A stretch of DNA of 64,000 nt from Zymoseptoria tritici IPO323 (taxonomy: Eukaryota > Ascomycota > Dothideomycetes > Mycosphaerellales > Mycosphaerellaceae): positions 1,488,001 to 1,552,000 of the forward strand of contig NC_018208.1 in assembly GCF_000219625.1 (NCBI RefSeq). The letters run 5' to 3'. The position numbers were made by a program, and so were the translations under genes. How positions within the stretch are numbered: position 1 is the stretch's first letter; each line of letters opens with the position of its first letter. Below, one piece after another: positions 35,825 to 61,957 of the stretch. Under the pieces are notes generated by a model. The model was not told where the DNA came from, did no database searches, and saw only the letters and a list, made by a program, of their open reading frames with translations.

Positions 35825-36069
35825 TTTTTTGATTGCAAGAGGGGTGTTATCGTGGCATATTCGTCGGTTGGTTGTGTGTTCTCCGATGTGTTCGTGAGGT
35901 GTTCAGTCGGAAGTTCGAAGGGAGACATCGATATCTCCATTCTCCAAGCCTCCGCTGTCAGCAGCCATGCGCCGGAGCTGACTCCGCCCCCGATCTCGAC
36001 TTCACAGCTCCCCCTCCCCTCCACTTCCCTCTCCAAAACAACAACAACCCCCACCTCATTCACCCAAGA

Positions 36070-36768
36070 ATGCCACCCTCAACAACCGCAGACCTCACCA
36101 CCGCCCTCCTTACCTACCTAACCTCCAAACACCTCCCCCCGCGCCCCCAATTCCTCACCTCCCTCCTCCCCTCCCTCAACCCCTCCATCCCCCTCGCCGC
36201 AACCCAAAAAACCGCCCTCTTCCGCCTCCTCGCAACAGACATCACCTCCACCCTCCAGTCCACCCCGACATCAACTTTCCCACCCAACATCTCCAACCCA
36301 GCCGTCAAGGAAGTCACCCTCCCGGGACCCATTACAGTGCAAGTCCTCGACATCGAAGACGTGGGACGCAGCGCGTGGAGTCAGGTTGAGATGATGGAGA
36401 TGGAAGAACGGGGGGAATTTCGAAAGGGGTCGGAGATTATTCGTGTCACGGAGGAGGAGGAGGAGGAGACGTCTGATCCGGCGGGGAGGCCAGCGGCGTC
36501 AGGGCCGCATAAGTTGTTGGTGCAGGATGCGAGGGGAGTGAAGGTTTTTGCGTTTGAGATGGAGAGTGTGGCGGGTGTGGGAATGGGGATGGCGATTGGG
36601 AGTAAGATTGTGTTGAAGGGGTGTGTGGTGGCGAGAGGGGTTGTGTTGTTGACGCCGGGGAGTGTGGAGGTGTTGGGTGGGAAGGTGGAGATGTGGGAGA
36701 GGAAGTGGAGGGAGGAGAGGAAGGCGAGGTTGAAGGTTAGGGCGGGGGGAGGGGAGGGGGGTGGATGA
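36070..36768 (+). CDS. RMI1: RecQ-mediated genome instability protein Rmi1
   Basis: OB-fold partner of the Sgs1/BLM helicase and Top3, acting in recombination-intermediate dissolution. Single exon, 232 residues from the ATG at 36070. N-terminal helices (LTTALLTYLTSKHLPP, FRLLATDI) precede an OB fold. Its strands are seen as ITVQVLDIEDVGRSAWSQVE, KLLVQDARGVKVFAFEM, GSKIVLKGCVVARGVVLLTP and VEVLGGKVEMW. An acidic loop (TEEEEEETS) sits between strands. The Gly-rich C-terminus is short. The longer ORF upstream of the ATG is promoter sequence. Confidence 0.85.
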   Translation: MPPSTTADLTTALLTYLTSKHLPPRPQFLTSLLPSLNPSIPLAATQKTALFRLLATDITSTLQSTPTSTFPPNISNPAVKEVTLPGPITVQVLDIEDVGRSAWSQVEMMEMEERGEFRKGSEIIRVTEEEEEETSDPAGRPAASGPHKLLVQDARGVKVFAFEMESVAGVGMGMAIGSKIVLKGCVVARGVVLLTPGSVEVLGGKVEMWERKWREERKARLKVRAGGGEGGG

Positions 36769-37289
36769 ATGGATGGAGAGGTGATGCGGATGAAAGATTT
36801 CTGAGGGTTGAGACGCAGCGCTTCTGAGATGCATTGTCTCCTGCGTCCACCGATGGCGAGCCAATTGGCCAGATATGAGCACGTTTCGAAGACATGCTTG
36901 TCAAGGTATGGCGATTCTCTGTGCGAAGTTCTTCCTGCGCTGACGAGTCTCTCCAGAATCCACAGCGCAGACCGAGTGACGCGCACCGCTTCCGGCCTTG
37001 CAACGAAAGCTTCCACAACTAAGATACCAGAGCATTTGATACCGATACCACTGGTCCGCTCAAACCCCCAAAAGACATGTCGTACGCACGGTCAGCTCTA
37101 CCTCGCCACACAAATCGAACGTCAAAGATGCAATGCCCGCTTCGGCGGACACATCTCCCGCCTGCAGCTTCCCGTCCTCCCCGATCAAACGCAGCACACC
37201 GCCTCCCTCCCCGCGCTTCCACCCTTCTCTCTCCGATGGGGAAAGCAATGCATATAACTCTCCCAATCCTGGCTGTTTTCCAACGAAAG
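36769..37289. other. Intergenic, 5' flank of tRNA-like unit T1
   Basis: No gene. A TATA-like element (TATAAC) at 37253 lies 37 bp before T1. Confidence 0.5.
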
Positions 37290-37397
37290 GGGGATGTGGT
37301 CTAATGGTAAGATTCTGTTTCGAGTGTACGGTGCCGATGGCAGAGCTCAACCCACTGCGCGGATTCAGAGACGTCGGTTCGATCCCGGACTTCTCCA
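37290..37397 (+). ncRNA. tRNA-like Pol III unit T1
   Basis: 108 nt. The 5' half reads GGGGATGTGGTCTAATGG, containing an A box, then TAAGATTCTG. The 3' half is CAGAGACG, a B box GGTTCGATCCC, then an acceptor-like CTTCTCC plus A. The ends pair as an acceptor stem with one mismatch and one G-U. Between the anticodon-stem halves (TTCTG/CAGAG) lies a 48-nt insert instead of a 7-nt loop. A TATA-like element is at -37 and a T5 run at 37407-37411. Overall form is tRNA with an extended anticodon region; no standard anticodon loop is assured. Confidence 0.75.
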
Positions 37398-37599
37398 TGA
37401 ACTTTCTTTTTGCCTGCCGGCTTTGAGGTATATGCTATCGGCGGTGAACTCATCGGCACCGTTCTGCGGCTGATTCTCTGAAGCAATGCTCCTGGTCCGC
37501 TGTCTGGCCTTTTACATGAACATGATCGACCATGCGCTTCGCATTGAGCTCCGGCAGGCAAGCTATAAAATGCTCATGGCATCCAGTCGTTTCATCAAA

Positions 37600-37736
37600 G
37601 GGGATGTGGTCTAATGGTAAGATCCTGCGGAGAAACCGGACGATCGCCGCGCATTGGCTGGCCATTCTTGCCGCCTGACTGCCTGGCCTGTTCCGTTACT
37701 ACCTCAGGGACGTCGGATCGATCCCGGACTTCTCCA
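37600..37736 (+). ncRNA. tRNA-like Pol III unit T2
   Basis: 137 nt, same halves as T1 with a different insert (about 77 nt). The stem closing the insert is TCCTG/CAGGG. The B box is GGATCGATCCC, one base off the other copies. TATAAAA at -36; T5 run at 37744-37748. Its 5' flank (about 70 bp) is homologous to that of T3, 22 kb away on the other strand. The first 65 bases of its insert resemble T5. Confidence 0.7.
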
Positions 37737-38241
37737 TCGATTCTTTTTGTGTATCTGCGCGTTCTTCTTCTTTGTGGATAGCAAGTGGACACCACGTGAA
37801 TTGAGGGCCCAAGGTCTAGCTTATTTTGTCTTGCGTCTTGAGAGGACTGAGCTGCTAAGAGTTTGGGATGTAACAGACCTGCCTGGAGATTGTGGTTTTG
37901 ATCGTCTTGCGCTGACGATGATAAAGTCGAGATGTAGATCGCCATCGTAGAGTTTTCATTGTCCTTCAAGATCCTGCCTTGGCTCTAATGTTGAAATGTC
38001 CTGGAACAGGAGCTTAGGTCGTAGTTCTTGCTCGGTCTGAGATGATGGTTGAAAGACATCTCAAGATTCGATGATCGACTTGATCGAGGCGCCGCGGGTG
38101 GGCACTTTGACTCACTCACCATAGCTGGTTGGAAGCGTCTGCTGCATTGTCAGGTGTTCGCTTGATGAATGCGTTCAAGAAAATTTGGTCAAGGTCGGCT
38201 CGGCGTCCGTGGCGTCTCGTCTTCTCGCCGCTGGTGGACCG
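37737..38241. other. Intergenic between T2 and the HET-NACHT gene
   Basis: Contains the T2 terminator and the 3' flank of the HET-NACHT gene. No other feature. Confidence 0.5.
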
Positions 38242-41200
38242 CTACGCGCATAATAGCGCTTCGACTGAGATTCCTCGCTTGCTCGCCGTAGGCATCCCTG
38301 GCGCAGAGGCGGCATACTGCAAAGTCATCGTCCCACTCACAGAGTTGGAAGTCTGACGACGTTCAGTTTGCTGTGCAGCTCTTTTCGTAGCCATATCTTG
38401 CAGTCCATCTACTCCGTTCCCTAGCTGTGGTCGCAGATACTCCAGTATGTCCACCACTGCCACTTTCCCGTCTTTCGCCGCAACTCGTTTCCACGGCACA
38501 GGCCATGCCTCCGGATGCAAGTCATGACACTCTGCGCCTACACAGTAAGCACACATCGATAGATTTGCTCCCCAGTCCAGAATCAGCGATATCGAAGCGA
38601 TGCACTCTTCGATGTCACTCACCCCATATCCTACAACCCCTATGTGCGAAAGGAAGTTTGCGAATATGGAATGACCATGCCACTGCGCATTGGGATCCGC
38701 GCCGTACTCGAGCAGCTGTCTGACTCGACTAGACACAGGGCTGGAAGAGTCTTTGCGTCGTAATGCGTAGTCCAATGGAGGCCGGCCAGTCTTGTTGTGT
38801 ACGTGTGCCGCTGTCAGGTTCTGGTCCAGAAATGTGGTGAACTCGGACTGCACCGCGAGTGAAACGAAGTCGGTCCCTTCCGAATGCCACTCTGCCGACG
38901 TATAGCCCGCCATGATCCGAGCATTTGGGTCGGGTGCGCTTGTAAGGAAGTCGGCCGCAGTCTCCAGCACCTTGAAGAGACCCACCCACCGGGGATCTTC
39001 TGGGCTCAGTAGCGCTCCGTATATAAGGGAGTCTGCTAATTCTGTCTTCCAAGTGTGGCAATTGCGGCTGCTGGCGTGCTGCAACATGAGGACTTGAGCC
39101 ACTTTTGTACTTGCGAGGAAGAATTCCAAGTCTGAGGTCGCCACGGGAGCCGTGGCAAAGTGTTCATTCGCGAACTGCTGAAATGTTTCCTCGAGCAGGA
39201 AATCGTGCAACGTGCGATGCATGAAGTCCACCACGAAGCAGCCCGCCAGCGTGATGTCCTGCGCAACGAATGAGGCCAGTGTAAGGGGAATTTCCAAAAT
39301 TTCTTCAATTTCATCCTTTTCCGTCGTCGAATCTCCATCGGTCAAATCTCCTTCAGTTGTACTTTTTCTTCTTTGTTTTTCGAAGGAGATCCGAGCTTCT
39401 TCCGCTGAAGTTTTCTTTGAAGTTGTCCGAATAATATCGAGGGTCGGGTAGAAAGCCGTCCATGAGGCTGACGCCGGAGGACCTCTTGAGGTAGAAGCAA
39501 TCAAGCAAACCTTTGCAGCGACTGGATAGGACACGAAGGAGGCCGTTCAGACGATGGACGAGAGCGAGAGGATTTGAGAAGAGTTGCCGATCTGTAAAGG
39601 GATGGAGAACAAAATCAGGATTCGAGGAGGCAATGTCGAGGAATAGGAGATCTATCAGCTGTAGCTTGTCGTCGACGTAGTCATCCATCTTCTCCTGTTC
39701 GTCAGCCTTCAGTGCGAGTAGGAATATCATACAAGCTTGTTTCCGATGGTGTACTTCAATAGATCCGAGGATCTTCCCAAAATACTTGTCCAGATCCGGA
39801 GGCACGGAGTACACGTGTTGTAACAGTGTGCTGTAGGAATCGCCATCTCGAATGCCGCGGACGAGCTCTCTGACAACAAGGTGAGCCCAAAGAAATACAC
39901 CTTCAGCTCTACTTGTTACCACTGCGATGAGGCTGGCGGCATGAGAATCGTGGTCCAGCATTTGGAGAAATCGAGGCTGGGCGCGCAATTCCTCGCGCAC
40001 GAAACTGTGGATATCCTCGTAGTTGAGATCCTCCAGGCGGAGTTGAGGGCAGCCCGAGAACGCATCGTAGAAGATTGTCCAGCGACGACTGGAAATGAGC
40101 ATTTTGATGCCGGGACAGCTGGTGATGTCTTGGACGAATTCGATCAAGGCTTCGCGGGCGTCATCATCTCCGCCGAGCTCATCCAGCCCGTCGACGATGA
40201 ACACAACTTTGCACGACTGCGTGATTGTGCGCAGAGCATTGGCAAGAAACCCCCTCAGTTCCGAGTCCGACCAGGAGATCATGGGGCCATTGGGACTGAG
40301 GGCGCACGCCAACCTCCATATGTGCTCCGGCACGTGGTTGATCATATCATCCGGTAGCTGCCGCAACAGTTCCAGCAGCGCCGTTCTCATCAGTCCTGTC
40401 AGCGACTTCTGCAGATCAGACCCAGAGATCCAAAAGTAGTGCGCAATCCGCACAAGCTCTGACCCTTTGACCCAGGGACGCATATGCTCGGTGGTTAGTT
40501 GCTCGTTGAGGAACTTCATAAGACTGGATTTCCCTGCACCAGGCTTGGCGCTGATCCAATATATGTTGCTTGGAGGGCGCTCGGCCCCTAGCCACTCAAC
40601 AATGTTGTCCCACTTGCCCGGCGCTGAGGTGGAGGCCAGGAGGGACCATAGGTATGTGCCGTGATGTGCGCCGGTAATCTGACTTTGGCGAGCGTCGAGC
40701 AGGTAAAACCGAAGACTGTCCATCAATGAGTTCACAGCGTCTTTCGTGGTGCGATAATGGGGATCAACTCGTGCCGGCTCGTCAAAATAAGCCTTTCGTT
40801 TGAGGCCTCTCGAGCCCGGTGCTTGTGTGTGTGCATCCTCGTCGATCTCAGCGATTGCCCTGAGCAATTTCCGCTTCGCGTTTCCTTCCCCTTCTCCATA
40901 ATTTGCTCCGGGCGCAACTCCAAAAATGCCGAACAATGAATACCACATGTCCTCTCCTTTAGTCGTCTCGCGGCCTTGCATCCACTGCATTTTCTCCTCG
41001 AAGCCCAAATTCTTGCTGCATTGATAATGCCTCAAGACAGCAACTGGGATGCGAGTCACTTGCGCCAGGTCCTCGTCCAGTGAGTTCCCAACATGCCCAA
41101 AGTTCCCGGCAACAGTCTCTTCGTCAAATGGACCCTTGTGGCCAATGATGTTCCACTCAAAATTCAAGAATACGACCCATCGTGGCGCCAATAGTTCCTG

Positions 41201-41638
41201 TAAGGTCCAGCCTCGCCGAAACCATTCGCTGTGTCTCCAATTCTCCTTCAAGACTTGCTGTTTCGTTGAAACACTGCCGTGCTCCGGCAGAGCAGGGCCT
41301 GCGACATCCCATAGCCAGACCAAGCATATCTCCGCAGCTGCGTACCACTGAAACATGCAATTCACACCCTCGGACACCTCCAAGCTGCTGTCCTGTTTGA
41401 GACATACCGTGTCGATCCACAGCCATTCGATGCGAGGGATGTTGTCTTTGATGTGCTGACAAGAAGCGAGAACTTTGCGGTATCCCGACGAAGTCGTATT
41501 GCGGCGTTTGGATATATCCTTGAACGTCGCCTCGTCGGATCGCCAGCGATGAGATGCAACGGCGTAAGGCGGTGTCGCATCATGTGGAGGATTGGGAAAT
41601 TCCACAAATGTCAAGGAATGGCAGTTGAGGAGTCGCAG
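38242..41638 (-). pseudogene. HET-NACHT-ankyrin protein (fungal NLR-like), start codon and frame disrupted
   Basis: Class of proteins that control allorecognition and cell death in fungi. Frame 1 (41638-39353) encodes an N-terminal HET domain (YAVASHRWRSDEATF, WLWIDTVCLKQD) and a NACHT NTPase. Walker A is AKPGAGKSSLM (about residue 360-370); Walker B is VVFIVDGLDEL (about 480). SSRCKGLL follows. The expected MRLLN start reads CTG-CGA-CTC-CTC-AAC, so the ATG is replaced by CTG at 41638; a stop lies two codons further up. Frame 2 (+1; 39534-38242) carries VDFMHRTLHDFLLEE and ankyrin-like repeats (RQLLEYGADPNAQ, LILDWGANLSM). The two frames overlap by 180 bp. A short intron or a one-base change is needed to join them. 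Could be a live gene with CTG start and intron, or a pseudogene. Confidence 0.75.
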
Positions 41639-42261
41639 CTTGGGTCATGTGTAAGTTACGGTGGCGCGGTTATGTCTTTTGCCCAGACTATTTGCCCGAA
41701 CGACGCCTGAGAGTCCAGTCCCTTCGAAAGATGAGGCGTGTGTACGAACGGGAGTGTTGACTTCGATTCCGACAGACCAGGGAGATGATGGCCTTGAATG
41801 AAGGCATAGCGAGAAGACAGGCCCTCGGCCTGGTTTCTGCCGGATACTTCATCCAGCTGAGAAGTGGCGCGAGAGCGCCTCGTCACGCTTTGCCGCTCGG
41901 TTGGAACATGCATGCATGCAGGAGGCCTCTTAAGGTACCTTCCAGGTTACCTACGTTAGGCAGCGAGCAGATGACTAAGCAAACTGGAATGCCTTAGGCA
42001 TGAACATCCAGGAGACGGGAAACTTCACACCCTGTATCCAACCAAGATCGTTCAACCATTCGAGCAAGCGATAAGAGACCATATCTTACCTTCCCGTCCC
42101 TATGACATGGTTTCACGTTTACCGCCGATTCCCCATGAAGATTCCTTAAGCATTACAAAGAGGCTGCGCTCATGGCTAAAAGGTCATGCGCTTGTCGTCT
42201 TTGTTTCCCGAGGAAATACTCTCGCTGGCTGTTTGGCGGCTTCGCTTTCCATCTCTCGATT

Positions 42262-43870: not shown

Positions 43871-45895
43871 TCACTCGAGTTCGATGACAGTTTGAAAGTT
43901 GACAGCTGGAGACTTGGACATGATCTGTCCATGCATAAGCCCATGCACGTAAGCCGCTCCCACAAGCCGATATCTTGCACTCCCCTCCTGCTTCCGCAAG
44001 ATCAACGGCACTCTCGAGCCCGGCACGATAAAGACCGAGTCGCCGGGCAGTATTGCCTCAGCACCGCATCCAAGAAGTCCTCCGGCGGTGCGAAAGACTC
44101 GGAGACATACTCTCAGTGAGAAAGCGGTATCGAACTCGCGAATGTCGGCTTCCAGTGTACATGAGGCCAGTTTGAGCTGTTCGAATGCTCGCAACGTACC
44201 GGCGACAGCGCTACTCCTGTCGAGAGCCCCGAAGATTATGTCACCGCCGGGTTTCAACTGCATCCATGATCGAAAGGCGTTCGACATGGCTGAATTCGCC
44301 GGACATGTCTTTCCCCAGCCGGTGTTGAACATGATTGTTCTCCAAAATGCTTCTGTCAGGTCCTGCCGAGAGTCCTCCGTGCCGGACATCTTGTCGGGCC
44401 GCGTGGGCTCGTCGAGCGTGGGATACATGTCAGGCATGGGACGCAAAAGCTCGGCGGTGGCATCCAGGTTGCTGCATTCGCGGAGCTGCTGTTTGGTGTT
44501 GCCAATCGCAGCAACAGTGCCGACTTGAGTGACACGAAGCCGCAGAACAAGCTGTTCGCGGTCAGCGAACTCGATTCGTTGCAAGAGGTTGTCGCCGGCC
44601 CAGTAGCGCCTGTATCCTGTTATACCAAGGCCGACCTTGTCCTTCACGGACCAGTCGGGCACCCACGACGGAACAGCCTTTCCCTCTGCTTGCAATGCCG
44701 CGCTCCTCAAACTTTCGGAGTATGCCAGAATATGTAGATTGTTCGACATCTCAAGTACAGCCCGTGCAGTCTGCGTGTAGGCCTGTCCCAGGCTCTTGCT
44801 GTAGTCCGGCTCGGGAAAATGAAAGTCTTTAGGCCAGCAGCGGAGACCAATGCCGTAGCAGCAGTAGACCTTGTCTCGCGCTTCCTGGCAATCGAACTCT
44901 CTCGCTCTGATGAGCGTGTCCAGGAACAAGTCATGTTGTTCGTGCTCGCCTTTGCTCTTCTCTGTCATCGCCTTGATATCATCCTCTGTTCCGCCGATCT
45001 TCGCAGCGGCACCAAGCCGAGGATCAGGTCCGAGGTCCCTTAGAAATTTTGAGTCAACAAAGCGATCCTTCCACTCGGATTGTGCTAGCCAGCCGGACAC
45101 CTCACGAAGGGCTTTCCACTTGATCTCCAGGTCACCGCACCAAACGATCTTGTTCTTTGCTAGAATCACCTCCTGTATAACCCACGCTCGTGTGAACCAA
45201 GTGCGCCGAAAGAACTTTGCTAGGGCTATCCAGCAATCTCGATAATCAAGGTCTGCAGCGTAAATTGCGGCAACCTTTGATGCGACCTTTGCGTCGCTGA
45301 TGCCATCGGGACGAACCGTCTTCCGCTGTTCAGGTTTCAAGTCTCCTAGCACACGAAGGAGATCTACAGCAACGGTGCTGTTGTTGCGGAGGTCTTCTTT
45401 GCCCAGCCAAATGAGTACTTCGAGGGCAGTAGCATAGATACTGCCCATGAGCTGAATTTGCTGCGTCTTCTCAGTCTGATCATCGGGGTCCTGGTTGATA
45501 CACAAAGCGTCGATCCATATGAGCCTGCGAAATCTCTTCCGCCGAACTTGGTCGAGAGCTTGAAACAGATTGTGACTGACCCAGCATGTCTCGCCATTGC
45601 AGTAGATTTTCATCAGAGGGTCATCTCTCACGGGAGATCCTGACGACCAATCATGGTATTCCAGGGCGTTGTGCCAGGTGTATGAAAGTGCTGAGAATCC
45701 TAGGCCGGAGGAGAGATCTTCGATGGTCATTGCACAAACCACCTTTCCATCTTGCAGCTCGGACTGGACTCTGATCATCCGGACTTGATTCGGCCCTAAG
45801 CGATCGATGTATAAGCTGGGAGGGACCTCCATTTCGAACGTGACAAACTGCCAGATCGTTGGACAGCGAACACGAGCACAGCTTCTGTGACGCAT
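43871..45895 (-). CDS. HET-domain protein (heterokaryon incompatibility type)
   Basis: Single exon, 674 residues from 45895, or 653 from the Met at 45832, which opens the MEVPPSLYIDRL segment and is equally plausible. The HET domain spans about residues 65-230: FSALSYTWHNALEY, VSHNLFQALDQVR, RLIWIDALCINQDPDDQTEKTQQIQLMG, IYATALEVLIWLG and FTRAWVIQEV. The C-terminal part follows the het-6-like layout with VPSWVPDW and ILPGDSVFIVPGSRVPLILR near the end. HET proteins trigger cell death upon non-self recognition; the target here is unknown. It is the second HET gene within 8 kb. Confidence 0.88.
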   Translation of the reverse strand: MRHRSCARVRCPTIWQFVTFEMEVPPSLYIDRLGPNQVRMIRVQSELQDGKVVCAMTIEDLSSGLGFSALSYTWHNALEYHDWSSGSPVRDDPLMKIYCNGETCWVSHNLFQALDQVRRKRFRRLIWIDALCINQDPDDQTEKTQQIQLMGSIYATALEVLIWLGKEDLRNNSTVAVDLLRVLGDLKPEQRKTVRPDGISDAKVASKVAAIYAADLDYRDCWIALAKFFRRTWFTRAWVIQEVILAKNKIVWCGDLEIKWKALREVSGWLAQSEWKDRFVDSKFLRDLGPDPRLGAAAKIGGTEDDIKAMTEKSKGEHEQHDLFLDTLIRAREFDCQEARDKVYCCYGIGLRCWPKDFHFPEPDYSKSLGQAYTQTARAVLEMSNNLHILAYSESLRSAALQAEGKAVPSWVPDWSVKDKVGLGITGYRRYWAGDNLLQRIEFADREQLVLRLRVTQVGTVAAIGNTKQQLRECSNLDATAELLRPMPDMYPTLDEPTRPDKMSGTEDSRQDLTEAFWRTIMFNTGWGKTCPANSAMSNAFRSWMQLKPGGDIIFGALDRSSAVAGTLRAFEQLKLASCTLEADIREFDTAFSLRVCLRVFRTAGGLLGCGAEAILPGDSVFIVPGSRVPLILRKQEGSARYRLVGAAYVHGLMHGQIMSKSPAVNFQTVIELE

Positions 45896-46482
45896 CGTGC
45901 CTTTAGGCAGATCCGTGTCGATTTGACAGATTCCTCCTTAATTGTGCTGCACTTTGTTTGTCGAGAGGGCAATCATGTCAGTCAGCCCTGCACCGCACCG
46001 CAGGCGAGCTCTGTTCATGCAGTGTGATGTCGCCATGCATGGGCCGACTCCGCTCCATTAGATGTCCATCGACTCGCAAAGCCTCGTCGTTACTCTGCTG
46101 CATCTCCCAATCGCTCTTCGATCGTGTTCATGCCTCAATACATGTTCCATGGACGAAGAAGCCAAGTGAAAGCTCCAGAAGTGGGAAGTTTGTGGTGCAA
46201 AGAAAGCAACCTAACAGAAGGACGGCCATCATCAAGGCGTTTCTGCCTCAGGCATCCTAGCATCACGGTGAACCTGTTTTGTTTGCTACACACTGCATGC
46301 GCCTCCTCCTCGTCTACGATGAACTGCATCAAGCCTTCATCGAACTCGCCAAAGCATGACAGCTGGCGAAGAGATACTCTCGCGCAATGTACTGCCGTCG
46401 GTCAACGTACATTTGAGCCATCAACAACGGCAAGCAAGAACCACAAAACTTGACAGGCTACAGGCGCAGCGAGGCGGCCCAT
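45896..46482. other. Divergent upstream region of the HET gene and the phosphatase
   Basis: Holds both promoters; no other feature recognised. Confidence 0.5.
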
Positions 46483-57293: not shown

Positions 57294-58673
57294 TCATCTC
57301 GCCACCGCAGCGCTGAGAACTTGTGTCCGGAAGAAGCCACCCTTGGTTCGCTCGATGACCTGCTGGTAGACGCTGACGGGTGGGTGGTTCATGACCACGG
57401 TACCGGCCTTGTAGTCGATCTTGGCGTCTACACGGGTGTCGCGGATGAGGTTGACGATCCACTTCTCTCCTTCGTCGTGCGAGAGACCGAGACGCGTTGA
57501 AAGGTCCCTGAAAGCTTGTTAGTACACGAAATGGAGAATCTGACGCTTCGATGCAACTCACTTGATGTCAATCCGCTGATGAATCTTGCAGTACGACTCG
57601 GAGATGAGATGGCGCGCAGAGTCGATGAAGGAGTCCGCCGCAGCCGCGAGGAAGAAGTCGGCACGCAGAATCTCATCAGCCTCGAGCAGACGCTTCTGCG
57701 CCTCCTCAAAGTCAAAGTCGACGTACAGCGCCTTGACGAAGCTGGTCACGGGGTCGTTGTACTCGTATTGCTCCTGGCGAACAATGCGGACCAAATCCTT
57801 CAACTGCTTCTGGTAGTTGCCGTACATGAAGTTGCCCTTGCTACCAGGTCGGTTGCGGTTTGTGATGACAGCAGCGCAAAGGTATCGCAGAATCCACGGG
57901 CATGAGGTCTGAATGGTGTTGATGTAGGCGGGAGAGAAGAAGAGCTCGGTCAGAGCTTCACGGGCGGGCTCGTGGTTGAAGAATGGGAACAGCGACCAGT
58001 GAAGCAGCCATGTGCGGTGCTGAAGTTGTGCGAGTGGGTTGTTGAAGAGGCGCGTGTCGATGCTCTCCTTGATCTTCATGACCTCCTCCATTGCGCTCTC
58101 CCAGTTGACCGTCAAGATATCGCATGCCAGCTTTCCCCATGTCGCCGCATTGACCTTGTCGTTGTCGGTGGAGAGAATGCGGAATTGGTAGAGCAGCTCA
58201 GCGGCGGTGCCGTAGTCGCCGCAGGTGTATTGGAACTGGCCGAAGTCGTACAGCTGATCGACCATTTGTGGTGTCACGCCGTGGTTCTCCTTCAAGTAGT
58301 TCATGTTGCTGTTCTTGTCGCTGCGCAAGTTGTTGATGACGTCCGCATCGCCGAGCAGACTCTGAATCTTCTCCGTCTCCTCATGGAATATCCGTTGTCG
58401 CTCAAGAACCTCCTCGCTCTTCTTCGTGTATTCATTCGGTCGCTCCGGAAGATCATTCAATTCTGCGTACAGATTGCCCACGAATTCGTGCATGTTCGTC
58501 TGTTTGAGGAGCGCATATTTCAATTTCGTGATGTCGGTCGTGTCCTGGTCTTCGGGGGTATCCTCTTCCTCGAAATTCAGCAGTGGGAAGACGAGATGGC
58601 GATCGAGGTTCGGGATGAGTTGGGAGAGCAGGCTGTTCTCCTTCGCGAAGTCCTGTTGTGTTGAAGTGGCCAT
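57294..58673 (-). CDS. INT6: Translation initiation factor eIF3 subunit e
   Basis: Subunit of the cytoplasmic eIF3 complex. Two exons: 58673-57562 and 57507-57294, with a 54-nt intron; 441 residues from the ATG at 58673. The N-terminus ([23 protein letters not shown]) is typical. The helical repeats are followed by the PCI region: [15 protein letters not shown] [62 protein letters not shown] and exon 2 [20 protein letters not shown]. Head to head with mL49; 200 bp between start codons. Confidence 0.93.
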
Positions 58674-58874
58674 GATTGCGGTGGTATGTTTTGTGAGGTT
58701 GTGAGAGAGAGTCGTTGTCGCTGTCGTGAAGTTTGGTGGGGAGGATTTTAGTGCCAAGATGTCGGAGGTCGGAGGCAGGTGCGAGGGTCTGAAGATCTGA
58801 AGTCTCCTGACGAACTTCACCTCATCACAGCCAGCAGCAAACGACCGACTCGTGCCACCACATTCACCATCCTC

Positions 58875-59534
58875 ATGACTTCAACATCGATCATGCCATT
58901 CCTGCGCCCGCTGGGGCTTCCACGACCAGCGACAGTCCGGAGCTTCCTGAGGTTCTCCACCAGTACAAGATGTCGCGCGAGCCAGCACGAGACCACGAGC
59001 GCAAACGATGAAGGTGAAGACAGCTGATATCGTGCCATTGCCATCGCATATACTCACACTCTGTCAGATCCCAATCTCCGAGCTTCTCGATACGCTCCCG
59101 AAAGCTACCCACCTCCGAGCATGCGATCAAACCCTCGACCGAAAGAATCCAAAGCCTCCCGCCGAACCGCACATCCAACCAAGGAACGCCCATATCCAAC
59201 TCGCAGAGCATCTCACCATCAACCAGCCGTATCAAAATTGATTCCCGAACCCGTCGAGCCGCTGAACGCCGAGCAATGCGCCCCAAACCTGCCATACTTC
59301 GTCTCACGCAGCGCAAACAACGAGCTGCCGATCTATACATTGAGGAAACGAGGAGGAAACTTGAAGATGACGAGGATCAAGAAGATTGATGGAGACAGGC
59401 ATATTCTGAGGGACGAGCTGAAGTCATTGCTGAAGAATTCGGACTGCGTGGTGAATAGCGTTACGGGGCATATCATGATCAAGGGACATCATAAGCCGCA
59501 GGTGGAGAAGTTCTTGAGGGAGAGGATGTTCTAG
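58875..59534 (+). CDS. IMG2: Mitochondrial large ribosomal subunit protein mL49
   Basis: Two exons: 58875-59013 and 59068-59534, with a 54-nt intron (GTGAAG donor, GTCAG acceptor); 201 residues. The N-terminus ([18 protein letters not shown], then LRFSTSTR) is a mitochondrial presequence; a second Met at 58893 may be the true start. The conserved core is in the C-terminal half: [36 protein letters not shown], then [25 protein letters not shown] and [10 protein letters not shown] at the end. Size and core match the Img2/mL49 family. Confidence 0.9.
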
Positions 59535-60034
59535 GAAGTCGGTCCCGGGTAGAGGCTGGGAGGAGGCCACCCTTGACGGTCAGACTATGTACAAATGTGA
59601 CACAAATGGATATGCATAATGCAGCCCGCCCCAGCCACGTTCGCCGCAGTCATCGCTCTCGGGATCCGAACAGCTTAGCGAATCCCTGCTCGGCTTTTGG
59701 TGCATAGGTCTTCCTTCGGTCTGAGAGCTCCGTGTCTCGCTTCAACAAGTGCACACCCCTAAGAATGCCCACACGGGCGATATTGTTGACCTGCTCCTGG
59801 ATGCCGTCTTGGAGTCAATTTGCTTGCCGGCCTTCACAATGCGTATCAGGCCATTTGGTGGCACACCTGTCGATCCTGCGACCGGACTCTGCTTCCAGCT
59901 CGACTATCGTACGCTTCACGATCCTTTCGGACCGGAGCGACTTGCCTGTCTGCAGCATTTCAGACTCCTACTCTTGCAAAAAGCATTTTCACAATAGCAC
60001 ATCGACTCCAGAGCCATGAAATCGCAAAAAGATA
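59535..60034. other. Intergenic, 3' flank of T3
   Basis: No gene. The A-run at 60026-60030 is the T-run terminator of T3 on the minus strand. Confidence 0.5.
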
Positions 60035-60162
60035 TGGAGAAGTCCGGGATCGAACCGACGTCTCTGAATCCGCGCAGTGGGTTGGAGTTGCCGATTCCGG
60101 CTTCCTTGCCGAATTCGGCACCGTACGCTGAAGACAGAATCTTACCATTAGACCACATCCCC
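60035..60162 (-). ncRNA. tRNA-like Pol III unit T3
   Basis: 128 nt. Same halves as T1; insert of 68 nt closed by TTCTG/CAGAG. The insert starts and ends like T1 but has 20 extra bases in the middle, including a GCCGAATTCGGC palindrome. Canonical A and B boxes. TATACA at -36; T5 run directly downstream. The 5' flank is homologous to that of T2. Confidence 0.75.
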
Positions 60163-60352
60163 TTTGATGAAATGACTGGATTCGATGAGCATTGTATAGG
60201 TCCCATGGCGGACCTCAAGGCGGAGAGCGCGGTCGATCATATGAAAAATTTGGATTTTGTGCTAGAGCAGAACCTTGAACAGTCAGCCGCCGGCTATAAG
60301 AAGGAAGCTGCTGCCGATAGGAACCCTCAAATCTGGAAAAAAGAAAAAAGAT

Positions 60353-60507
60353 TGGAGAAGCATGGGATCGAACCGACGTCCCTAAGTTATTTACGCCTAG
60401 GAGATCTTTCAAGCGACCGGCCCAGACAATACAGTCTGGCCAGTTGGCAAGGGGCGATCTCGACCGGGTCGTTTTCCCCTAGGATCTTACCATTAGACCA
60501 CATCCCC
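60353..60507 (-). ncRNA. tRNA-like Pol III unit T4
   Basis: 155 nt, the longest unit. Insert about 96 nt closed by TCCT/AGGG, with a strong internal hairpin (CCAGAC...GTCTGG). B box intact; the base after it differs from other copies (CCATG instead of CCGGA). TATATAA at -43 to -37; T6 runs follow within 20 bases. Confidence 0.72.
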
Positions 60508-60744
60508 TTTTTCGAATCGTTGTGAGAACGAAGGTACTTCTTCTTATATAATCCCACTAGCAGGGCACATTGTAGCTCGAAACGGTATAACCGCCTACTG
60601 AGAGTAAGATTCGAACACTGTCACATGCCAAAACCTTAGCCCCTGAAAATGTAAACGAACGGTTCACGAGAAAGGCGGTCTACAGCCGGTCGACAGTCGA
60701 CTTCTGCCCTTTATTGTTAGGGTTATGAAGGAATATTCCTAGTG

Positions 60745-60843
60745 ACGAGCCAGCCAGGCGGCGAGAGGCGGCAAAGATGGCCAGCTAATGCGGCGGCAAT
60801 CGTCCGATTTCTCTGCAGGATCTTACCATTAGACCACATCCCC
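60745..60843 (-). pseudogene. Truncated tRNA-like unit T5
   Basis: Intact 5' half with A box, and about 70 nt of insert resembling T2 (CGGACGAT and CTGGCCAT shared). It then diverges with no 3' half, B box or acceptor end. TATATA at -37 to -34 remains. Probably a broken copy. Confidence 0.7.
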
Positions 60844-61053
60844 CTTAGTTCTGTTTCTTGCTCAATCGTCTGGTATATGTACGCTGCTTGTACGTGCGTG
60901 GCAAACAAAATCAGAGGAGGGGTCTCCCGCTTATGCAACTTCCCGATACGGAAAGTTTAACGTCTGTCACATGCGAAATGGCTTTTCACCACTAGTATAC
61001 ACAAGTCTTTGGCACATCGAGATGTCTATGCTATCGTAAGCAAAAAGCATGAT

Positions 61054-61185
61054 TGGAGAAGTCCGGGATCGAACCAACGTCTCTGAGCTCAAAGGTGAAG
61101 CATCGCTCCGTTGTGAAACTTGCGTTGTGAAACTTGCGCTTCGGAATCAATTGAGCCCAGAATCTTACCATTAGACCACATCCCC
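61054..61185 (-). ncRNA. tRNA-like Pol III unit T6
   Basis: 132 nt. Insert 73 nt closed by TTCTG/CAGAG, extended by GGCTC/GAGCT-like pairing. The insert holds two tandem CGCAAGTTTCACAA units. B box is GGTTCGATCCC. TATTTG at -36 is the weakest TATA match. T5 run at 61046-61042. Confidence 0.72.
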
Positions 61186-61411
61186 TTAGCTGTTCTTCTC
61201 AAGATTCATTGGCATCAAATAGTCCATCATCATTCGTCAGAGGGCAGAGGTAAAAGCGAGTCAGGGGCAGCCACCCTGCCTGCAACTTTTAAAGGAATGG
61301 CGCAACTCGTACGTACAGTTCTCGGTTCGAGTCTTCGAGACACAAGTCGTGCATACGTGAGCCCCACGAGGATCGAGTCGTCTCTTGTACTCAGGCAAAC
61401 GGCAAAAAGGT

Positions 61412-61511
61412 TGGAGAAGTCCGGGATCAAACCGACGTCCCCGAGGTACTTGCAGTGATGTATGAACCTAGCTGGGTTGCCTGCGGGATCTTACCATTAG
61501 ACCACATCCCC
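61412..61511 (-). ncRNA. tRNA-like Pol III unit T7
   Basis: 100 nt, the shortest unit. Insert of about 40 nt closed by TCCCG/CGGGG. The B box is GGTTTGATCCC, one base off. TATAAG at -33; T5 run at 61408-61404. Confidence 0.72.
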
Positions 61512-61957
61512 TGAGTTGCTTTATTACCATCCGCAGGACTTATATGCATGCAACCGCCCTCGTGGGCGCGGAGGCTGTTGACATAGATAACGCAGAGGGT
61601 GCGCAGCTGAACCCGATTGAAAGGGGCACATGGAAGCGCGCGGACATGAATGACATTATGCCCTTGGTTGTTTCTCGTGAATCGCAGAACTTATGTACAT
61701 GCGAGTGCTCCCGTCAGCGCTGAGACTGTTGACACAAGGAAAGCAGGAGGTGCGCAGCTGAATGGAAGGCCCACATGAAAGAGGTCGGAATTGAGGAATC
61801 GAGACGTTCCGAGAAGATGGTACAGTCAGTGTGAGCAAGGTTTTGGATCCTCATCTCGCATTGCACTAAATCTACCACACGATCCTCTGCGCGCAAGTTC
61901 TGTTCGCACTCCTCACGAGGACACGTCCGTTTTCAGTCCACCAGCCAAAGCCCTTCC
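61512..61957. other. Intergenic with a local direct repeat
   Basis: 61529-61635 and 61680-61785 are similar (GCAGgACTTATaT, CTGTTGACA, GTGCGCAGCTGAA). Otherwise nothing recognised. Confidence 0.6.

Follow-up and report, generated by a model that had tools for sequence, protein, structure and literature searches.

A 64-kb stretch of the Zymoseptoria tritici IPO323 genome (the window; C11:1488001-1552000) carries seven tRNA-like units, which together with two relatives in tandem on contig C1, U8 and U9, make up a family of nine genes as counted by motif searches. The units combine tRNA halves with an insert in the anticodon arm, carry promoter-like and terminator signals of RNA polymerase III (Pol III), show compensated changes in their stems and fail to yield one tRNA upon excision. 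The explanation that we favour, at about even confidence, is that these few Pol III genes descend from a tRNA gene and no longer decode; their transcription and processing, the persistence of the insert in the RNA and a possible function are inferred. The genome searched comprised 39,686,251 bases in 21 contigs, with 1,624,292 bases on C11.

Anatomy and distribution of the family

Six units of the window are complete, and T5 is without its 3' half (Table 1). As originally predicted, T3 to T7 form a same-strand array (60035..61511, minus strand), with T1 and T2 on the plus strand at 37.3-37.7 kb. All seven units start with the same 24 nt, GGGGATGTGGTCTAATGGTAAGAT, and six end on the nearly identical GACGTCGGTTCGATCCCGGACTTCTCCA. 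The predicted pattern of near-identical halves around a variable middle was found in all six complete units, the middle being located in the anticodon arm and measuring 40-95 nt. An A box and a B box are present in the T units, with T5 lacking the B half.

The 21-nt 5' core GATGTGGTCTAATGGTAAGAT occurs seven times without mismatch in the 39.7-Mb genome, each time within the window, and a motif search outside the window found no further copy at 0 mismatches; one additional place appeared at 3 mismatches, and none in the reversed-pattern control. The 3' half has six genome matches with 0-3 mismatches, again all within the window (control 0). In a covariance-model search, which had been proposed as a check on the original prediction, the Rfam tRNA model matched only T1 (30.2 bits) and T6 (31.8) among the T units at its gathering score; at E <= 1, applied to 60000-61600, T3 (28.4) and T7 (24.6) were added, and T4 was still without a match. 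ARAGORN run without introns called no T unit.

The T6 insert contains a 14-nt tandem repeat unit, present twice. Neighbours of the units in the window are the genes for an eIF3 subunit (57558-58880) and for RMI1 (35833-36768), and two HET-domain genes (39353-41644 and 43871-45937), one of them with NACHT-like matches, lie between both tRNA-like clusters.

Table 1. Coordinates of the tRNA-like units, of their flanking signals and of tRNA genes with GT-AG inserts. Positions without a contig are those of the window; insert lengths of the T units are measured between the 4-nt stem strands.
Feature	Position	Strand
T1, complete unit; insert 37318-37365 (48 nt)	37290..37397	+
T1 TATA-like element (about -38)	37252..37257	+
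T1 TTTTT terminator	37407..37411	+
T2, complete unit; insert 37628-37704 (77 nt), partly homologous to T5 insert	37600..37736	+
T2 TATA-like element (-36)	37564..37569	+
T2 TTTTT terminator	37744..37748	+
T3, complete unit; insert 60067-60134 (68 nt), homologous to T1 insert	60035..60162	-
T3 TATA-like element	60193..60198	-
T3 TTTTT terminator	60026..60030	-
T4, complete unit; insert 60385-60479 (95 nt); T stem partly broken (CCCATG)	60353..60507	-
T4 TATA-like element	60544..60550	-
T4 TTTTTT terminator	60344..60349	-
T5, truncated: 5' half (from 60843) and partial insert, no 3' half	about 60766..60846	-
T5 TATA-like element	60873..60878	-
T6, complete unit; insert 61086-61157 (72 nt); 11-bp extended anticodon stem; no upstream TATA match	61054..61185	-
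T6 TTTTT terminator	61042..61046	-
T7, complete unit; insert 61444-61483 (40 nt)	61412..61511	-
T7 TATA-like element	61540..61545	-
T7 TTTTT terminator	61404..61408	-
U8, complete relative; 108-nt insert	C1:4796743-4796911	
U9, complete relative; 269-nt insert of small hairpins	C1:4796093-4796421	
tRNA-Asp(GTC), L071	C1:2149712-2149858	-
tRNA-Asp(GTC), L109	C12:180080-180390	
tRNA-Asp(GTC), L110	C5:695690-696010	
tRNA-Ile(AAT), L076	C1:5763870	-
tRNA-Gln(CTG), L079	C2:1333763	-
tRNA-Tyr(GTA), L102	C11:1197300-1197580	+
tRNA-Pro(AGG), L060	C12:1153719	-
tRNA-Arg(CCG), L058	C3:2189790	-

U8 reaches 43.2 bits against the Rfam tRNA model despite its insert and forms one acceptor-to-T cloverleaf with a non-standard pair in the D stem, and in U9 the D, anticodon and T stems are all paired. 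The U9 insert consists of tandem repeats (23-24 and 47-nt units; L105 1241-1488) that can be read as hairpins, 11 of which were used from 16 listed loop positions, five being dropped as overlapping or unpaired. Their stems measure 5-6 bp (4 bp in two), and the loop is CTTGT, CTTGA or TTGTG. Across the nine distinct hairpins, 94.4% of 54 cells are paired vs 73.0% in shuffles, and covariation is 0.630 vs 0.229; both values were reached by 0 of 500 shuffles. Both sides are changed in four of the six pairs, a count also seen in 20 of 500 shuffles. Such compensation could alternatively arise from template switching within tandem palindromes, which counts against the favoured reading.

Neither of two degenerate end searches of the whole genome added a member: the first returned nine places (eight units and L108; control 0) and the second ten (nine units and L107; control 5). 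L107, L108 and L059 were rejected as family members, not being tRNA-like by eye. These searches relied on motifs with few mismatches, so that more distant members could escape them. The 21-nt motif had 0 matches in public viral contigs. In public collections the 18-nt core GTGGTCTAATGGTAAGAT was found in two bacterial records, one an exact match in a true tRNA-Gln (L047 3164-3237) and the other apparently a chance match; its presence in bacterial tRNA-Gln is probably a convergence on the A-box consensus.

At least five Ts stand within 22 nt of the end of all eight complete units (chance 0.9% each), and a TATA-like element is found at -33 to -43 in seven of the nine units (chance 1.5% per 22-nt slot), T6 and U9 having none upstream. 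Among tRNA genes of this genome an upstream TATA is common and no rule. It is present at -39 to -42 in the Asp (L071), Ile, Gln and Pro genes, and only further up, at -55 to -69, in the Tyr and three Arg genes; none was found within 90 nt of the Val and Leu genes or in the 43 and 33 nt examined upstream of Asp L109 and L110.

Conservation of the tRNA body

When the arms of the eight complete units are joined, pairing amounts to 86.4% of 176 cells vs 83.6% in shuffles, and covariation to 0.183 vs 0.133. Neither value was equalled in any of 500 shuffles or in a slid control, in a test of only eight sequences, six of them close kin. Four pairs are changed on both sides, three of these within the anticodon stem (TCTG/CAGA, CCTG/CAGG, CCCG/CGGG and CCTA/TAGG, for example); as many are seen in 21 of 500 shuffles and in the +2 slide, and the count of further pair types is equalled in 490 of 500 shuffles. 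The stems of a four-arm cloverleaf are present across the eight units, with better pairing in U8 and U9. Two mismatches are common to the six complete C11 units, T-T at 6-67 and a second at 49-65, which is G-G in T4 and G-A in the other five; further T-stem pairs are lost in T4. These are signs of relaxed constraint.

Folded whole by minimum free energy, the T units do not adopt a cloverleaf and have no clear advantage over shuffles (z -1.42 to +1.35). The inserts by themselves have z values of -3.55 (U9), -2.84 (T3), -2.34 (T4), -1.72 (T2), -1.52 (U8), -1.43 (T6), +1.01 (T7) and +1.50 (T1); only T3, T4 and U9 fold better than shuffles at P < 0.05, and the T1 and T7 inserts fold worse than the average shuffle.

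The inserts had been predicted to differ in sequence. They share sequence in the pairs T1/T3 and T2/T5 and otherwise do not align. The T2/T5 alignment spans 81 columns with 7 mismatches and 1 gap, 28 columns being the identical half, and this divergence might be about equal to that of unconstrained sequence. T3 is a mosaic, since its insert is homologous to that of T1 and its upstream flank to that of T2. T2 and T3 differ at 15 of 78 upstream flank positions and at none of the 24 positions with which the units begin (Fisher P = 0.013), a contrast that favours selection on the halves. Nonetheless, recent copying or gene conversion may contribute to the identity, because T5, without a 3' half, has an equally perfect 5' half; this weighs against the non-decoding RNA family.

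The observations on T5 and T3 would also suit intron-bearing tRNA pseudogenes, in which the intron site drifts freely and the halves are alike because the copies are young or interconverted, with no selection at work. We regard this as a possible, if tentative, alternative, to which the mismatches common to the six complete C11 units, the broken T stem of T4 and the variable positions 33-35 lend further weight. Decaying copies would not be expected to keep T runs after eight of eight complete units, TATA elements in seven of nine and compensated stem changes, and U8 and U9 retain nearly all cloverleaf pairs on a separate contig. In addition, the inserts are unalignable save for T1/T3 and T2/T5, whereas the first 24 nt are unchanged in seven copies.

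A somewhat doubtful possibility is that the tRNA body and its Pol III promoter only deliver a fast-evolving RNA, the inserts being shuffled from one tandem unit to another by recombination at the shared halves. The variable RNA would be either the extended anticodon arm or a released intron, and the units would form a natural tRNA-scaffolded cassette system. The original prediction was of a fixed scaffold with variable payloads. The constant tRNA-like frame, the Pol III signals and the compensated stem agree with the scaffold; the variable middle is a possible payload.

Position and fate of the insert

The insert occupies the region of the canonical tRNA intron site (37/38), in an uncertain register. 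Insert positions 6-7 are A in seven of the eight complete units and then a purine in all eight, and the last two bases before the 3' stem are a pyrimidine and then T in all eight; the canonical cut lies next to these bases. When T3 was set aside for its homology to T1, the best pair of neighbouring boundary columns was equalled by 0 of 5000 shuffles on either side, and the best single column of the 5' side by 0.9%, in a test that was chosen after looking and that took the maximum over 19 positions. The earlier statement that this is not the pattern of ordinary tRNA introns was therefore too strong: the insert lies at the intron site with a conserved A-purine, and on our own reading 12 of the 13 tRNA genes resolved in this genome have an intron of some kind.

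If the tRNA splicing endonuclease excised the insert, the latter could itself be the working RNA and the tRNA body a mere carrier. We consider this unlikely. The canonical site and the boundary bases would be accounted for, several true tRNA genes here have canonical introns, and a loop-intron pair between base 32 and the third base before the 3' cut is possible in seven of the eight units when the stem is shifted by one pair. However, in the register that fits U9 this pair is found in only two of eight, and a general search for pairing columns across the units gave no significant result (12.8% of 1000 shuffles scored at least as well). In T6, U8 and U9 the 3' strands are paired straight across the splice site, without a bulge. 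Moreover, U8 and the U9 insert matched only themselves in the genome, in a search insensitive enough for the U8 query to miss U9 and the T units.

Decoding capacity

With the intron fixed at 37/38 and limited to 130 nt, a limit that the U9 insert exceeds, ARAGORN called none of T1-T7 and read U8 weakly as Ser TGA (104.1). A free intron position and a limit of 400 nt gave Lys TTT for U8 and Asn GTT for U9, and again no call for T1-T7. Excision of GT-AG inserts with a branch site produced no call for the six complete T units (154 candidates, 35 sequences); without the branch rule these units were likewise uncalled. In these tests U8 gave only weak Val AAC calls (102.8, 100.6), and the U9 insert exceeded the intron limits set (130 and 70 nt). 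The top four calls considered per unit after exhaustive, unconstrained deletion included CGA for T1, ACT for T2, CAG for T3, TTT for U8 and GTT for U9, while T6 gave four different anticodons; T4 (7875 deletions) and T7 (2556) had no call. The excisions tested thus gave no anticodon common to the units, which do not all reduce to one normal isoacceptor after intron removal. The claim that they are not decoding tRNAs of one kind is upheld by this absence of a shared anticodon and by T4 and T7, which are without any tRNA call.

The loop of 7 nt was correctly described as having no conserved anticodon, but the observation that only T1 has a T at position 33 depends on the register. Under the canonical 37/38 cut with the stem as in U9, T33 is found in T3 and T6, and with the stem shifted by one pair it is found in T1, T3 and U9, so that U33 is present in only two or three of the eight complete units. 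In the U9 register T1, T3, T4 and T7 obtain no U33 loop with a paired 31-39, whatever the cut; in the shifted stem T1 and T3 gain a U33 loop with no 3' part, and T2, T4 and T7 gain none.

Decoding tRNAs of several specificities with unusual introns are very unlikely on these grounds. The ARAGORN calls for U8 and U9 would be explained, the free-deletion scores of U8 (115.5), U9 (118.2) and T6 (109.2) are in the range of resolved tRNAs here, and other tRNAs of this genome have introns at odd sites. Nonetheless, there is no common anticodon, T4 and T7 are uncalled, U33 is rare, GT-AG excision rescues 0 of 6 complete T units, and U9 as Asn would, by tRNA identity rules, require G37 and A73. A mobile element whose head derives from a tRNA, SINE-like or of another kind, would share the A and B boxes and the presence of several copies, but is hardly credible for nine copies that lie in two regions only and are tRNA-like at both ends, the motif search having found no dispersed copies, in line with the prediction that these are not decaying SINEs.

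Candidate introns in other tRNA genes of this genome

The Rfam tRNA search of the genome scored 63 of 1206 candidates and returned 58. Outside the T/U family we examined 28 tRNA-like places, a motif-picked sample and no census: 23 came from one motif search (54 distinct sites by hand count, minus 25 of two dispersed repeats and 6 T/U units), and three and two from further searches. The decoding tRNA was resolved, by judgement, at 13 of the 28 and left unresolved at 15, where seven ARAGORN calls were rejected (L080, L089, L096, L099, L100, L101 and L104). Eight of the 13 resolved genes contain one or more GT-AG inserts that leave a restored tRNA once they are taken out, namely three for Asp GTC and one each for Ile AAT, Gln CTG, Tyr GTA, Pro AGG and Arg CCG (Table 1). 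These spliceosomal-looking introns are probably a larger finding than the T/U family, and an exact-phrase search of the open-licence literature for spliceosomal introns in tRNA genes found none.

All three Asp genes combine a GT..TAAC..ACAG intron of 53-58 nt at 30/31 with a 17-nt canonical intron, and L109 and L110 have a second intron (GTGAGT/GTAAGT..AATAG; 54 and 56 nt) in the T loop; after removal of both GT-AG introns, ARAGORN reads L109 and L110 as Asp GTC. For L071 a longer deletion gives Leu CAA at 111.8 vs 110.6 for the Asp reading, and we preferred Asp, since L109 and L110, with both of their GT-AG inserts taken out, read as Asp GTC with the same 17-nt canonical intron. In the Ile, Gln and Tyr genes a spliceosomal-looking insert with GT, branch site and AG lies within the D arm, and a canonical intron is present besides in Tyr (by ARAGORN) and Ile (by eye). 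The T loops of the Pro and Arg genes are split by GT..AG inserts of 57 and 54 nt, respectively, with TACTAAC in the latter, and the B box is interrupted in both. When deletions were scored without an end rule, the GT-AG deletion was exactly the best for Pro L060 and Ile L076 and tied for best for Arg L058; for Gln L079 and Tyr L102 other boundaries scored as well or better.

One further tRNA-like unit (L057; C3:350589, minus strand) has a long insert in the anticodon arm, acceptor, T and anticodon stems that pair by eye, a TATA-like element at -29 and a TTTTT end; the excisions tested there yield no tRNA. A dispersed repeat with a tRNA-like part accounts for 28 of the 30 Rfam loci that were cut out (L003-L005, L007-L012 and L014-L032). 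It is present on many contigs, its tRNA-like part resembles tRNA-Cys(ACA) or Tyr, and with their many C/T differences the copies look like those of a RIP-mutated element.

A model for a possible non-decoding family

If the units are non-decoding Pol III genes, the upstream TATA, the A box and the B box would drive their transcription by Pol III and the T run would stop it. RNase P and tRNase Z would trim the ends, as in any tRNA-like fold, leaving a product in which the acceptor, D and T arms are kept, as is the anticodon stem at its base, and an extension of 40-269 nt replaces the anticodon loop. We lean, by a little, towards an extension that stays as an extended arm, because U9 and T6 have helices of 9-11 bp that span the splice position and because the U9 insert is a chain of hairpins that share a loop. 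Against retention stands the conserved A-purine of the boundary, which fits excision better. The RNA could then act as a tRNA-shaped handle, providing stability and binding of tRNA-handling proteins, for a fast-changing arm.

If transcribed, the units would represent a tRNA-derived RNA family that does not decode, in which the body is kept and the codon-reading arm is free to change fast. They would offer a compact system for asking what purpose a retained tRNA body serves, whether the splicing endonuclease also acts on RNAs that do not decode, and whether regulatory RNAs can come from tRNA introns or arms.

Comparison with known systems

No title or abstract start on this tRNA-like insert family was found in the open-licence literature. 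The free introns of tRNAs (FITs) of budding yeast are working RNAs that derive from tRNA introns. The likeness lies in a tRNA gene that delivers a variable small RNA as an intron, provided that the T/U inserts are excised; FIT host genes decode, whereas the T/U genes seemingly do not.

Nuclear tRNA introns are described as always residing at 37/38, save in Cyanidioschyzon and a nucleomorph (PMC3978253). Canonical intron-containing tRNA genes have Pol III signals, cloverleaf ends and the insertion site in the anticodon loop in common with the T/U units (PMC3978253, PMC6391926). In contrast to them, the T/U units have no kept anticodon or U33, their inserts extend to 269 nt and form a hairpin array in U9, and no single isoacceptor results. 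Nuclear tRNA genes of Cyanidioschyzon merolae are likewise broken by unusual insertions, but there BHB-guided processing restores the tRNA, while no tested excision restores one common tRNA from the T/U units (PMC3978253).

In two Z. tritici small-RNA studies, tRNA-annotated reads or loci are set aside (PMC6620828, PMC6960233); such studies could therefore have missed the T/U units, if these were so annotated. The precursor of the tRNA-linked milRNA milR-4 in Neurospora, a Pol III product released by RNase Z, is likewise a fungal Pol III join of tRNA and non-tRNA sequence with a TATA-like element and poly-T (PMC3547838), a parallel that for the T/U units would presuppose transcription. The T/U helices look too short for an obvious Dicer substrate. 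The milR-4 small RNA adjoins whole tRNA-Ala genes, whereas the extra sequence of the T/U units lies inside the anticodon arm (PMC3547838).
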